Below the pieces are notes generated by a model. The model saw only the letters and a program-made list of their open reading frames with translations. It did no database searches and was not told the origin of the DNA. Source: Sphingobium sp. V4 (lineage in GTDB: Bacteria; Pseudomonadota; Alphaproteobacteria; Sphingomonadales; Sphingomonadaceae). Taken from it: a stretch of 64,000 bases of DNA. Made by a program: the position numbers and the translations under genes. The DNA is taken from positions 62,001 through 126,000 of the forward strand of contig NZ_CP081002.1 of assembly GCF_029590555.1 (NCBI RefSeq), written 5' to 3'. Positions within the stretch are counted from its first letter, which is position 1; every line of letters begins with the position of its first letter. Shown here piece by piece: positions 43,746 through 58,954 of this stretch.

Positions 43746-44642
43746 ATGATTGATCCTCGCGCCCTGCGGATGTTCCTGGCCGTGTGCCGCGCCAACTCCA
43801 TCAGCGGCGGCGCGCGGCTGCTCAATATCTCGCAACCCTCCGTCTCCAACGCGATCGCCCAACTGGAGCAATCGGTCGGCGCGACCCTGTTCGAACGGTC
43901 CCGCACCGGGATCAGCCTGACCGCCGAGGGCGAAATCCTCCTCCGCCGCGCCGAGACGATCGATTCCGTCCTGCGGGAGGCGGAGGAGGAAATGCAACTC
44001 GCGCGCAAGGGCGTGACCGGCCCGCTTCGCGTGGGCGGTACGCCCGGTGCTCTGGTCAGCCTGTTGCCCGAAGCGGTGCGGCGGCTGGAGGACCGGATGG
44101 GTCGCTTCACGCTTCATGCCGTCGAGCGGCCCGATCATGACCTTGCCGCGATGTTGCGCGCGGGCGAGATCGAACTCGCCTTCGTCACCACCGGGATCGA
44201 GGCACCGCCGGACGATCTGGAGGAAATGACCTTCTCGCGCGATCCTTTTGCGCTGATCGTCGGTCGCCGCAACGATCATCTACCGGCGGAGCTGTCGCTG
44301 CGCGACATGGGCGCGATGCGCTGGGTGCTGCCCGAAGCACGCGGCGCCTTCCGCCGCCAGATCGACGCCCTGTTCATGGCTGCCGACGTGCCCGTGCCGC
44401 AGGATGCGATACGCTGCGACTCCCTGCTCACGACCAAGGCGATCGTGCGGGGCAGCAACAGGGTGACGATCCTGCCGATGCAGGTCGCTGCGGCCGAACT
44501 GTCGATCGGCGTGCTGCGAGCCATCAGCATCCGGGAGTCCGCTTTCCCCCGCAGCGTCGGCATCCGGCGCATGGCGGGCGGGCGGCTCTCACGCCTGGGC
44601 GAAGCGCTGCTGGACGCTCTAATCCATAGTTCCAAACTATGA
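43746..44642 (+). CDS. LysR-family transcriptional regulator
   Basis: 298 residues. N-terminal winged HTH (about 1-60) with ARLLNISQPSVSNAIAQLEQ and GATLFERSRTGISLTAEG, then a substrate-sensing domain from about 90. GGAGAG precedes ATG 43746; the open frame further upstream is only a shadow of the amidohydrolase and YoaK genes. It sits between two same-strand groups and may control the ycaC-like group, the aromatic operon directly downstream, or both; T-N11-A dyads occur before each. Confidence 0.9.
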   Translation: MIDPRALRMFLAVCRANSISGGARLLNISQPSVSNAIAQLEQSVGATLFERSRTGISLTAEGEILLRRAETIDSVLREAEEEMQLARKGVTGPLRVGGTPGALVSLLPEAVRRLEDRMGRFTLHAVERPDHDLAAMLRAGEIELAFVTTGIEAPPDDLEEMTFSRDPFALIVGRRNDHLPAELSLRDMGAMRWVLPEARGAFRRQIDALFMAADVPVPQDAIRCDSLLTTKAIVRGSNRVTILPMQVAAAELSIGVLRAISIRESAFPRSVGIRRMAGGRLSRLGEALLDALIHSSKL

Positions 44643-44661
44643 TGTCCCTAAAAATCATTAT

Positions 44662-55615: not shown

Positions 55616-58600
55616 ATGAAAGCCCGCACCCTTCGTTTCGCCGCCCTGCTGGCCTGCACCGCGATCGGCGCGCCGGCGCTGGCGGATGAACTGGCCGATG
55701 GCTTTCGCAATCCGCCCCAGTCGGCGCGCCCGCGCGTCTGGTGGCACTGGATGAACGGCAATGTGACCAAGGAGGGGATCGACAAGGATCTCGACTGGAT
55801 GGCGCGGATGGGGATCGGCGGGGTCCAGAATTTCGACGCCAATCTGATGACGCCGCAGATCGTGCTGCAGCGGCTGACCTATATGACCGACGGCTGGAAG
55901 GACGCCTTCCGCCATGCGGTGCAGACCGCCGATGCCAAGGGGCTGGAATTCGCCATCGCCGCCTCGCCCGGCTGGAGCGAGACGGGAGGTCCCTGGGTCA
56001 AGCCACAGGACGCGATGAAGAAGCTGGTCTGGAGCGAGACGGACCTGCGCGGCGGCCAGCGGCTGAAGGGCGCGCTGCCCTCCCCGCCGTCGATCACCGG
56101 CGCGTTCCAGAGCGCGAAGTTCAGCGACCCGCTGGCGGGAGGTGAGGGCGCAGCCGCACTTCCCACTTCCTATGGCGACGCTCGCGTGCTTGCCTATCCG
56201 GTCAAGGCAACTGCCTTGCCTGCGCCCCGCGTCACGCAGGGGAATGGCAGCGCTGTCGCCGCGGCGCCGCTGCTCGACAACGATCTTGAAACCGTGGTGC
56301 AGGTCGCGAAAGGCGACGCCGCAAATCCGGGCGCGCTCATCCTCGACTATGGTAAGCCCGTTACCATCCGGTCGGCCAGCCTGTTCGTGCCCCATGCGCG
56401 GCCGCCCTTCGGCGATCCGGCATACCGCCCGACGCTGGAGGCGGAGACCGCGCAGGGCTGGCAGCCGATCGGCCGCTTTTCGCTGACCGAAGTGTCAGCA
56501 ACGGTCGGCTTCGCGCCTGTAACCGCTCAGCGTTTTCGCCTGATGCTCTCGCCCAATGACGCGCCCAAGTCGCCGGGTCTGGGCGACGGCGCGCCCGGCG
56601 CGATCATGATCGACGTGTTCGGCCGCGCCGACAGCCCCACGCTTGGCATCGGCGATCTGCGCCTGTCGGCAGAGGCGAAGGTGGATCAATATGAAGCCAA
56701 GGCCGGCTACGCCATCGTCGCCGATTATAACAGCCTGAGCGACGCACCCGCGACCGACGCACCGGCCATCGATCCGGCGAAGGTGATCGACCTGACCGAC
56801 AAGCTGCGTGCCGATGGCACGCTCGACTGGACTGCGCCCAAGGGCAGCGACTGGCGGATCGTCCGCATGGGATGGTCGCTGACCGGCAAGATGAACCACC
56901 CCGCCACGCCCGAAGCGACGGGGCTGGAGGTCGACAAATATGACGCCGGCGCCGTGCGCCGTTATCTGGAAACCTATATCGGCATGTATCGCGACACGGT
57001 GGGCGCGGACTGGATCGGCCGGAAGGGCATCCGCGCGCTGCTGACCGACAGTATCGAGGTCGGCGCGTCCAACTGGACCCCTCGCATCGTGGATGAGTTC
57101 AAGGCCCGGCGCGGCTATGACCCGGTGCCTTTCCTACCGACCTTGACCGGCGCGGTCGTGGGGTCGGCCGCGCGCAGCGACGCCTTCCTGCATGATTATC
57201 GCCAGACGTTGGCTGACCTGATGGCCGACGCCCATTATGGCACAGTCGCTGAGGTCGCGCATGAGCATGGCTTGACCGTCTATGGCGAAGCGCTGGAAAA
57301 TGGGCGCCCGGTGCTGGGCGATGACCTTGCGATGCGGTCTCATGCCGATGTGCCCATGGCGGCGCTCTGGACCTTCAACCGGGGTGGCAAGCCGCGCCCG
57401 ACTCTGATCGGTGACATGAAGGGCGCGGCCTCGGTCGCCCATATCTATGGCCAGAATATCGTCTCGGCCGAATCCATGACATCGGCCTTTGCGCCCTGGG
57501 CGTTCGCGCCGTCGGACCTGAAGCGCGTCATCGACCTGGAATTCGCATCGGGTGTCAACCGGCCGATTGTCCACACCTCGGTCCATCAGCCGGTAGACGA
57601 CAAGGTTCCGGGTCTCAGCCTCATGATCTTCGGCCAATATTTTAACCGGCATGAAAGCTGGGCGGAGATGGCCAAGCCCTGGGTCGATTATATGGCCCGC
57701 ACCGGCTATCTGCTTCAGCAGGGCCGGGACCAGGCCGACCTCGCCTATTTCTATGGCGAAGATACGCCGATCACATCCTTGTTCGAACATGGCGTGCCTG
57801 CCGACCTGCCGACCCGATACGCCTATGACTTCGTAAATTCCGATATCCTCGCCAAGCGCATGACCATCGATAATGGGGAACTGGCGGCAGGCAGCGCCCG
57901 TTACCGCGCATTGTATTTGGGTGGCACTAGCCGGGTAATGACCCTGACGACCCTGCAGCGCATCGCGACGCTGGTGGAGGACGGGGCGACTGTCATCGGC
58001 CTGGCCCCCGAACGGGCGCCCGGCCTTAAGGACGACGCGGCCACGTTCAAGGCGCTCGTCACCCGCCTGTGGAGCGGTGCGCCGGTCGGTAAGGGCCGGG
58101 TGATCGCCAGCCGTGACGTTGAAGCAGCGTTGGCCAGCATCGGCATCGGACCGGATTTCCGGATCACGGAAGGCGCGGTCGACGCCGACTATCGCTTCGT
58201 CCATCGCAAGCTGGCAGACGGCGACCTATATTTCGTCAACAACCGCACCGACAAGGCTGGCCGGATCGAAGCGCGCTTCCGCGTGACGGGCAAGCAGCCT
58301 GAACTGTGGCGCGCTATCGACGGCACGGCAGCGCCCATCTCCTACCGCATCGAGGGCGGCGAGACGGTGATCCCGCTCGATGTCGGGGCCGAAGACGCTT
58401 TCTTCATCCTGTTCCGCAAGCCTGCCGTCGCGCCTGCCGTGGCCGTGGCGGCCAAGACGACCTATCCGGTCATGACCCTGAGCAACCCCTGGTCGGTCAG
58501 CTTCCAGCCCGGTCGCGGTGCTCCGGCGAAGATCGAGATGCCCAAGCTCACGCCGCTGGAAAGCAATGCGGACAAGGGCGTCCGCTATTTCTCCGGGGTT

Positions 58601-58954
58601 GCGACCTACAGCACGCGCTTCGCCCTGCCCAGGGGCGTGAAGGCTGGCGCGCCGCTCTGGATTGATCTCGGCCGGATCGGCGATGTGGCGGAGGTCCGCG
58701 TCAACGGGCAACTGGCCGGAACCAGCTGGTTCGCGCCCTATCGGATCGACATCGGCAAGCTCGTGAAGGCGGGCACCAATCAGCTCGAGGTCAAGGTCGC
58801 GAACCTGTGGGTCAACCGCCTGATCGGCGACCAACAGCCCGGCGCGCCGAAAGTCACCTTCACCGCCGCCCCGACCTACCGGCCCGATGCGCCGCTGCGG
58901 CCCGCCGGCCTGATCGGTCCCGTCACCTTGCAGGCGGAGGGTGACCGCCAGTGA
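55616..58954 (+). CDS. Exported GH106 alpha-L-rhamnosidase
   Basis: 1112 residues with signal peptide MKARTLRFAALLACTAIGAP to ALA. Near the N-terminus PPQSARPRVWWHWMNGNVTK and GGVQNFDANLM are the GH106 hallmark, followed by FAIAASPGWSETGGPWV. The central barrel includes VAHIYGQNIVSAESMTSAFA and GVNRPIVHTSVHQP; the last 150 residues are a galactose-binding-like beta-sandwich (WIDLGRIGDVAEVRVNGQLA). GH106 removes alpha-linked rhamnose, for example from pectin side chains or flavonoid rhamnoglucosides. With a GH1 beta-glucosidase and ring-cleavage genes the latter is favoured. ATG 55616 starts the signal peptide. Confidence 0.9.
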   Translation: MKARTLRFAALLACTAIGAPALADELADGFRNPPQSARPRVWWHWMNGNVTKEGIDKDLDWMARMGIGGVQNFDANLMTPQIVLQRLTYMTDGWKDAFRHAVQTADAKGLEFAIAASPGWSETGGPWVKPQDAMKKLVWSETDLRGGQRLKGALPSPPSITGAFQSAKFSDPLAGGEGAAALPTSYGDARVLAYPVKATALPAPRVTQGNGSAVAAAPLLDNDLETVVQVAKGDAANPGALILDYGKPVTIRSASLFVPHARPPFGDPAYRPTLEAETAQGWQPIGRFSLTEVSATVGFAPVTAQRFRLMLSPNDAPKSPGLGDGAPGAIMIDVFGRADSPTLGIGDLRLSAEAKVDQYEAKAGYAIVADYNSLSDAPATDAPAIDPAKVIDLTDKLRADGTLDWTAPKGSDWRIVRMGWSLTGKMNHPATPEATGLEVDKYDAGAVRRYLETYIGMYRDTVGADWIGRKGIRALLTDSIEVGASNWTPRIVDEFKARRGYDPVPFLPTLTGAVVGSAARSDAFLHDYRQTLADLMADAHYGTVAEVAHEHGLTVYGEALENGRPVLGDDLAMRSHADVPMAALWTFNRGGKPRPTLIGDMKGAASVAHIYGQNIVSAESMTSAFAPWAFAPSDLKRVIDLEFASGVNRPIVHTSVHQPVDDKVPGLSLMIFGQYFNRHESWAEMAKPWVDYMARTGYLLQQGRDQADLAYFYGEDTPITSLFEHGVPADLPTRYAYDFVNSDILAKRMTIDNGELAAGSARYRALYLGGTSRVMTLTTLQRIATLVEDGATVIGLAPERAPGLKDDAATFKALVTRLWSGAPVGKGRVIASRDVEAALASIGIGPDFRITEGAVDADYRFVHRKLADGDLYFVNNRTDKAGRIEARFRVTGKQPELWRAIDGTAAPISYRIEGGETVIPLDVGAEDAFFILFRKPAVAPAVAVAAKTTYPVMTLSNPWSVSFQPGRGAPAKIEMPKLTPLESNADKGVRYFSGVATYSTRFALPRGVKAGAPLWIDLGRIGDVAEVRVNGQLAGTSWFAPYRIDIGKLVKAGTNQLEVKVANLWVNRLIGDQQPGAPKVTFTAAPTYRPDAPLRPAGLIGPVTLQAEGDRQ

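Follow-up and report, generated by a model that had tools for sequence, protein, structure and literature searches.

We analyzed a 64,000-nucleotide stretch of the Sphingobium sp. V4 genome (contig NZ_CP081002.1, positions 62,001 to 126,000; hereafter the window) and focused on a cluster of co-directional plus-strand genes at 43746-58954. These encode a LysR-type regulator, an amidohydrolase, a flavin-dependent monooxygenase (FMO), an HbpS-like protein, a vicinal oxygen chelate (VOC) extradiol dioxygenase, a hydrolase of the fumarylacetoacetate hydrolase (FAH) family, a TonB-dependent receptor, two alpha/beta hydrolases (Est1 and Est2), a glycoside hydrolase family 1 (GH1) beta-glucosidase, a small membrane protein and a GH106 alpha-L-rhamnosidase. 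Our analysis points to a locus that breaks down a plant phenolic bearing rhamnose and glucose, most likely flavonoid glycosides of the rutinoside or neohesperidoside kind, a reading to which we assign a probability of roughly 0.6. Within it, there is good support for a rhamnosylated plant phenolic being imported, deglycosylated and passed on to ring cleavage, and flavonoid glycosides are the likeliest substrate because the characterized rhamnosidase RHA-P lies in an orthologous cluster and a variant of the locus carries a quercetinase-like gene. Flavonoid rhamnoglucosides occur widely in plant tissue and exudates, and sphingomonads are among the bacteria commonly found with plants. A conserved locus joining uptake, deglycosylation and ring opening would give RHA-P a physiological home and provide a genome marker of the capacity.

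Linkage of the sugar-removing and ring-opening halves

Contigs were scanned with the FMO, the best 80 of 135 relatives were kept with stretches of up to 10 kb on each side, and every cluster gene was tallied when tblastn gave E<=1e-10 anywhere in the stretch; these tallies count matches, for which orthology is not proven. One piece of the host's own genome without the FMO (L001) was removed, giving 80 loci and not 81. Contig ends shortened 12 of the 80 stretches, leaving 68 with full flanks, and Sphingobium sp. TCM1 (L002), the closest named relative among these loci, is 99% identical to the window and is not an independent case. Matches were obtained for VOC and FAH in 79 loci each, followed by Est1 (75), HbpS (73), LysR (70), the amidohydrolase (69), the TonB receptor (65), GH1 (64), GH106 (54), Est2 (32) and the small membrane protein (31). 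Among the full-flank loci, 48 contained GH1 (at least 45% identity) together with GH106, ten contained GH1 only, and ten contained neither. The loci span Sphingobium, Novosphingobium, Sphingomonas, Aurantiacibacter, Caulobacter, Marinomonas, Alteromonas and relatives within the alpha- and gammaproteobacteria, a spread over sphingomonads, Caulobacter and marine gammaproteobacteria that lies partly on megaplasmids. The initial annotation had proposed a search for the same gene order in other sphingomonads, and Sphingobium sp. TomTYG65 has this order in its annotation, minus the small membrane protein. In gammaproteobacterial loci such as L039, L057 and L060, GH106 is located nearby on the opposite strand; therefore, the linkage survives rearrangement.

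Because the 80 loci were picked by FMO similarity, a census of 298 genomes of the family served as a second test. FMO matches at E<=1e-100 occurred in 22 of the 298 genomes, seven of which hold orthologues (682 bits or more), as set by a 680-bit line drawn after the list had been seen, in its gap from 682 to 464 bits. GH106 was present in all seven genomes with an orthologous FMO versus 32 of 298 overall (Fisher p 8.7e-8). In six of the seven, the two genes share a contig and lie no more than 10 kb apart; in the seventh (G025, an assembly of 380 contigs), they are on different contigs. By comparison, only 2 of the 15 genomes with a weaker FMO match encode GH106, both unlinked (Fisher p 0.49). 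This association is far beyond chance and supports the two halves as one evolutionary unit. The proposal that they form one pathway thus stands on loci and census as far as a common unit is concerned, while its assignment of the ring-opening half to the fde pathway does not, as described below.

Sugar removal, uptake and indications of the substrate

The window GH106 matched the solved rhamnosidase 6q2f, which we take to be the published RHA-P, with 1357 bits. The GH106 encoded on plasmid Mpl of Novosphingobium sp. PP1Y (NC_015583.1) is the 6q2f protein (2610 bits over residues 24-1163, with no mismatch in the part of the alignment shown), in agreement with that assumption. According to the excerpt of a review (PMC6710449), RHA-P hydrolyzes naringin, rutin and neohesperidin dihydrochalcone. 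The PP1Y region contains orthologs of LysR (59% identity), the amidohydrolase (76%), FMO (67%), HbpS (68%), VOC (78%), FAH (65%), GH1 (67%), the small membrane protein (43%), Est1, Est2 and GH106, in the order Est2, GH106, LysR, amidohydrolase, FMO, HbpS, VOC, FAH, TonB receptor, small membrane protein, Est1, GH1. It differs in that GH106 stands ahead of LysR, whereas it is last in the window, and in a TonB receptor only 28% identical to that of the window. Among titles and the starts of abstracts, we found no paper describing the whole cluster; earlier RHA-P papers may describe its neighborhood.

Residues D478, S479, E481, E558 and E619 of the window GH106 align with the catalytic and calcium-site residues D458, S459, E461, E538 and E593 of BT_0986. 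The position of BT_0986 E561 is occupied by alanine in the alignment, and this glutamate is reported to be absent from RHA-P as well. The placement of the window enzyme with the RHA-P kind, a flavonoid-active relative, is supported, and activity on flavonoid rhamnosides is predicted. GH1 carries a Tat-type signal (LDRRTLLATGAALMAAPAFA), and its catalytic pair E183/E350 (E213/E380 in the long frame) is invariant in 64 of 64 aligned sequences; the best solved match was 4r27, and the score for NCBIfam TIGR03356 was below the cut-off (207 bits versus 478.5). Est2 reached 79 bits with the PaeX model, under the cut-off of 550, and is an optional accessory that possibly deacylates sugars. Loci differ in Est2, the small membrane protein and the TonB receptor.

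The TonB receptor, predicted to take up the glycoside, has been exchanged between loci: its identity to relatives is mostly either 54-88% or 26-35%, and by sequence the receptors of 28 loci fall into one group and those of another 28 into a second, separate one. Downstream of it, a 75-nt gap contains a hairpin with 16-nt perfect arms, 14 bp of which are paired in the fold, and an 81-nt stretch including it folds at -41.4 kcal/mol (z -4.1). Among 42 loci with the receptor 5' of Est1, 8 (one being L002) have stems of at least 10 bp, differing in sequence, ahead of Est1, versus 1 of 32 others; elsewhere they were detected before the amidohydrolase in 2 of 69 loci, before GH1 in 0 of 52 and before the FMO in 0 of 80. 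The hairpin is possibly a transcript boundary, a partial terminator or an RNA-processing site.

Neighboring genes offered further indications of the substrate. Relatives of L-rhamnose isomerase or rhamnulose-1-phosphate aldolase occur in 11 of the 80 loci, all 11 of which contain GH106. One member of each group was profile-scanned: the isomerase of L042 scored 649 bits with TIGR02629 (cut-off 646.75), and the bifunctional aldolase of L032 scored 988 bits with NF006189 (cut-off 634). The host itself probably uses rhamnose oxidatively, because a 2,4-didehydro-3-deoxy-L-rhamnonate hydrolase on another contig (C1:2973533) passed NF053535 (538 bits, cut-off 500). The cluster FAH was rejected as a rhamnose-pathway FAH (151 bits versus a cut-off of 500). 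On plasmid pLA3 of Novosphingobium pentaromativorans, a GH106 gene lies beside rhaI, rhaT and an aldolase gene, followed by pobA and protocatechuate 4,5-dioxygenase genes; no FMO of the window type was found within 16 kb of that GH106.

A quercetinase-like bicupin was identified in 6 of the 80 loci, all from Sphingomonas. The member searched (L081) had quercetin 2,3-dioxygenase as its best solved match (E 1e-36), and Croceibacterium (L086) has the same arrangement with an annotated quercetinase. Most of these variants share LysR, FMO, FAH, the TonB receptor, Est1, GH1 and GH106 with the window; however, they are without the amidohydrolase, and their divergent VOC, only 38-43% identical, is encoded on the other strand beside the bicupin.

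The ring-opening half and its relation to fde, ifc and mhp

The LysR protein had PcaQ as its best NCBIfam model, below the cut-off (134 bits versus 304). In the amidohydrolase, H64xH66, K179, H220, H240 and D315 lie in metal-site-like motifs and presumably bind metal; hydrolysis of a ring-cleavage product is predicted. The FMO (499 aa) contains the GxGxxG motif GCGPVG at residue 8 and a GD motif (GDAAHQTPPFFGQG) at 291. It passed the MhpA subfamily model NF004829 (481 bits, cut-off 390), failed all four MhpA equivalog models, and is predicted to catalyze ortho-hydroxylation of a phenolic ring. The HbpS-like protein is a core gene product. For the VOC enzyme (best solved match 3b59), ring cleavage is predicted, and all 80 aligned sequences, among them that of the window, keep its metal triad H131/H185/E236. 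The active-site residues that the initial annotation had named for VOC and GH1 were correct. In a comparison aimed at the FdeC/IfcB type of dioxygenase, the window VOC was 43% identical to a Herbaspirillum rhizosphaerae VOC without an assigned role.

Glycosidase-free loci revealed where Est1 belongs. An alpha/beta hydrolase lies directly 3' of FAH in such loci, e.g., L085 and L088; Est1 was matched in 8 of 10 such loci with full flanks; and in N. aromaticivorans pNL2 and Novosphingobium ES2-1, the order amidohydrolase, FMO, HbpS, VOC, FAH, alpha/beta hydrolase is kept with no glycosidases in the stretch. We therefore assign Est1 to the ring-opening core, in contrast to the earlier split that had placed it with the glycosidases.

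The FAH gene has two possible starts, the inner one a GTG with its own ribosome-binding site. Upstream of it, a [DEN]RR motif with a hydrophobic, Tat-like extension (TLDRRAALAALGGALLGTTGIKA in the window) was found in 19 of 79 FAH sequences, counting the window and the near-identical L002. The carriers are Sphingobium, Novosphingobium and a few metagenome-assembled genomes and include L033, L035, L036, L042, L054, L058, L061, L064, L073, L075 and L079; the other 60 sequences are without it. A Shine-Dalgarno-like sequence is located just 5' of the inner start in 18 of the 19. In a codon test on equal-length pairs differing in no more than 22 codons, many of the pairs sharing a member, in-frame synonymous changes exceeded those of both shifted frames in 14 of 16 printed pairs, with two ties. 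The extension is probably translated because synonymous changes in frame exceed those in the shifted frames. Export is predicted from the Tat-like motif, which suggests exported and cytoplasmic FAH forms from one gene; the predicted reaction is hydrolysis of an acylpyruvate-type product.

The initial annotation had described the hydroxylase as MhpA/FdeE-type and the ring cleavage as that of the Herbaspirillum fde genes. These are two different FMO types, and only the MhpA part was retained. A comparison came from Massilia putida plasmid unnamed2, which carries two modules side by side. The first resembles the window in HbpS (52% identity), VOC (42%), FAH (50% over 223 aa) and a 521-aa FMO (43%), and its amidohydrolase shows no relation to that of the window at E<=1e-5; the second consists of a 374-aa FMO, a VOC gene and a Rieske protein. 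Two proteins among 120 listed, P0307 and P0313, bear the JGI name 'naringenin degradation protein FdeE' and are 62% identical to the 374-aa FMO. The window FMO is 24% identical to P0313 and P0307 (46 and 53 bits), references that are named by similarity and are not FdeE of strain SmR1; based on this identity and on length (499 versus 374 aa), FdeE was rejected as its identity.

FMOs of the 374-aa type are encoded elsewhere in the host, at C1:2788345 (L109), C2:497781 (L110) and C2:18216 (L111), with 45%, 45% and 39% identity to P0313, where C2 is the contig that contains the cluster. Each shares a 19-kb stretch with genes for a VOC protein, an FAH and a prolyl-oligopeptidase-like hydrolase, and these are candidate fde/ifc-like pathways. 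The hydrolase of L109 matches 2,6-dihydroxy-pseudo-oxynicotine (DHPON) hydrolase 2jbw, and the hydrolase of the ifc cluster is likened to a DHPON hydrolase in the portion of PMC11069340 available. A tblastn search with a Massilia Rieske protein, made to look for a partner like FdeD, gave no match in the window (E<=1e-4) or in the three FdeE-type stretches (E<=1e-6), so that this feature discriminates poorly. Of the 298 genomes in the census, 34 encode an FdeE-type FMO (E<=1e-80), among them 2 of the 7 with a window-type FMO (p 0.18); a dependence of the window module on an FdeE-type set was not supported. FdeE-type FMOs are also enriched with GH106 (9 of 34, p 0.005). In one family genome (G127, C1:2466559-2477434), no more than 10 kb separates GH106 from an FdeE-type FMO, which possibly makes this a second kind of glycoside-to-ring-opening locus.

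The described systems share some features with the window and differ in others. The naringenin operon fde of Herbaspirillum seropedicae SmR1 has LysR control, an FAD hydroxylase and an A-ring fission scheme in common with the window (partial texts of PMC8552027, PMC10799723 and PMC11303751), where the LysR gene is co-directional with the operon. It differs in its FdeE-named 374-aa FMO type, whose reported partner is the Rieske protein FdeD (PMC8552027, in part), and the excerpts mention no glycosidases or TonB receptor. The isoflavone cluster ifc of Variovorax V35 likewise uses an FMO and then a glyoxalase-family dioxygenase on the flavonoid A-ring. The same excerpt (PMC11069340) reports IfcA as 36.3% identical to FdeE and describes cupins and a DHPON-hydrolase-like hydrolase, with no mention of GH106 or GH1; the host's own sets of the ifc kind lie outside the window. 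The similarity to mhp lies in the hydroxylase subfamily NF004829. The mhp pathway is a 3-hydroxyphenylpropionate route with the LigB-type extradiol dioxygenase MhpB, whereas the window has a VOC enzyme in its place, FAH and the glycosidases; no LigB family was detected among the cluster proteins scanned. Judged by sequence comparison, the ring-opening half is a module distinct from fde/ifc, because its FMO is not of the FdeE type and the host's FdeE-type genes lie elsewhere. An annotation modeled on fde would single out the wrong enzyme, and a knock-out designed on that basis could mislead because the host has separate FdeE-type genes.

Proposed pathway, alternatives and gene inventory

We infer the order of the steps, their compartments and the aromatic substrate as follows. 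The TonB receptor would import the glycoside, periplasmic GH106 would remove rhamnose, Est2, where present, would remove acyl groups, and Tat-exported GH1 would remove glucose. The aglycone would then cross the inner membrane by a route not recognized in the cluster; the MhpA-type FMO would add an ortho hydroxyl, the VOC enzyme would cleave the ring, and FAH, Est1 and the amidohydrolase would break down the cleavage product, with LysR sensing an intermediate. From the earlier claim of a flavonoid glycoside route from uptake to ring opening, the substrate is thus kept on the strength of a GH106 of the RHA-P kind and the quercetinase variant, and the fde chemistry is not. A more specific version, which we put forward tentatively and which is somewhat doubtful as a whole, is a self-contained phenolic-glycoside locus that imports rhamnosylated flavonoids and processes them as far as ring opening, along an MhpA-type route that is independent of both fde and ifc, with FAH in exported and cytoplasmic forms. 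If true, this would represent a second bacterial way of opening the flavonoid ring.

Several observations weigh against the flavonoid-glycoside locus. The TonB receptor is not conserved across loci, the hairpin lies between the two halves in the window, and glycosidases are missing around the core in 10 of 68 full-flank loci as well as in pNL2 and ES2-1. The host genome gave no RhaI match and no bifunctional RhaD above cut-off, and phosphorylative rhamnose use was not found in the host. The window FMO is not FdeE-type, and the host FdeE-type genes elsewhere could perform the flavonoid step. Transporter genes of the TRAP or tricarboxylate type adjoin distant FMO relatives, which would suit an aromatic acid. 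Some of these points would fit the same architecture acting on a non-flavonoid aromatic, namely a phenylpropanoid or phenylethanoid (e.g., caffeoyl rhamno-glucoside), stilbene, dihydrochalcone or coumarin glycoside. Acyl links would then be the targets of the esterases, and a phenylpropanoid or resorcinol-like ring that of the FMO. The hydroxyphenylpropionate hydroxylase subfamily of the FMO, the two esterase-like genes (one of the BD-FAE type), the transporters mentioned and the location of the FdeE-type genes agree with it, while RHA-P of the orthologous cluster is documented, in the excerpt cited, on flavonoid glycosides and the quercetinase-like variant points the same way, both being compatible with a broader rhamnosidase; we consider this alternative rather unlikely.

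It is quite improbable that the sugars are removed from a rhamnose-bearing polymer or saponin, such as pectin rhamnogalacturonan I or a steroidal saponin, with the aromatic genes serving another substrate. Bacteroides GH106 enzymes act on pectin, and Est2 has a weak pectin acetylesterase similarity; against this, no pectin lyase, GH28, GH78 or GH105 was detected among the cluster proteins scanned, and the linkage to FMO and VOC extends across classes. A Sphingobium GH106 does act on saponins, but the saponin regions in the part of that publication available comprise GH3, GH39, GH78 and GH106, not GH1 with an FMO (PMC10653915). That the halves are chance neighbors working separately would accommodate the hairpin and the ten glycosidase-free loci, yet it is hardly credible given the census result for orthologue-bearing genomes and a linkage that outlasts rearrangement in gammaproteobacterial loci. 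The flavonoid-glycoside locus thus remains our preferred reading.

The host genome comprises 4.54 Mb in 4 contigs, with the cluster on the 1.25-Mb contig C2. Family profiles detected every gene named in the initial annotation, on the strand and in the order given (Table 1), and the small gaps and overlaps it described range from an 11-nt overlap to an 80-nt gap.

Table 1. Features of the cluster, in window coordinates
Feature	Position	Strand	Remarks
LysR-type regulator	43746..44642	+	first cluster gene; PF00126 and PF03466 above cut-off
Amidohydrolase (Amidohydro_1)	44723..45958	+	PF01979 99 bits; core gene
MhpA-type FAD hydroxylase (group A FMO, FAD_binding_3)	45975..47474	+	PF01494 227 bits
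HbpS-like small protein	47471..47902	+	PF03928 103 bits; core gene
Two-domain VOC extradiol dioxygenase (Glyoxalase/VOC), predicted	47899..48789	+	PF00903 34 bits, cut-off 20.6
FAH-family hydrolase (FAA_hydrolase), full frame	48779..49711	+	PF01557 230 bits
FAH Tat-like N-terminal extension	48779..48877	+	in frame, 5' of inner ribosome-binding site and GTG
FAH short form, possible GTG start at 48878	48878..49711	+	AGAGGAG 8 nt 5' of GTG
TonB-dependent outer-membrane receptor	49750..51963	+	PF00593, PF07715
Inverted repeat 3' of TonB receptor	51973..52004	+	fold z -4.1
Est1, alpha/beta hydrolase (BD-FAE/Abhydrolase_3)	52039..52887	+	PF20434, PF07859; GTSAG motif
GH1 beta-glucosidase	52913..54217	+	Tat-type start ~52913 (open frame from 52823); PF00232 191 bits, cut-off 22.6
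Est2, alpha/beta hydrolase (Abhydrolase_3/DLH)	54230..55159	+	Sec-type signal; PF07859, PF01738
Small membrane protein	~55156..55596	+	several hydrophobic stretches (by eye); optional accessory
GH106 alpha-L-rhamnosidase	55616..58954	+	Sec-type start ~55616; PF17132 1032 bits, cut-off 29

No Pfam family matched the small protein at 55156-55596, and the minus-strand shadow frames scanned gave no family. The promoter scan was no better than chance (2 found versus 2.5 expected), and the scan for terminator-like sites gave 13 versus 9.6 expected. An amidohydrolase at 41072-42997 and a hydrolase at 40017-40856 were rejected as cluster members, with matches in only 3 of 80 loci (L002, L003, L020). 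Genes for Ku, an MgtC-like protein and LigD follow directly after GH106 at 58941-62896, the Ku open frame overlapping the GH106 end, and are outside the cluster. Further upstream, a TonB receptor, two GH3 genes, a sulfatase and a LacI regulator at 20952-30067 probably constitute a separate sugar locus, and genes for an NMT1-like binding protein, an ABC permease, an ATPase and an Alginate_exp-type protein stand in a row at 30286-34942. Among the 80 loci, a gene resembling PLP (pyridoxal phosphate)-dependent threonine/serine dehydratases lies just 5' of LysR in 13 (L004, L006-L012, L014, L016-L019), and 14 (L067, L030, L072 and 11 others) encode a hydrolase of the metallo-beta-lactamase fold close to Est1, in most cases immediately 5' of it, with two copies in three of these loci.

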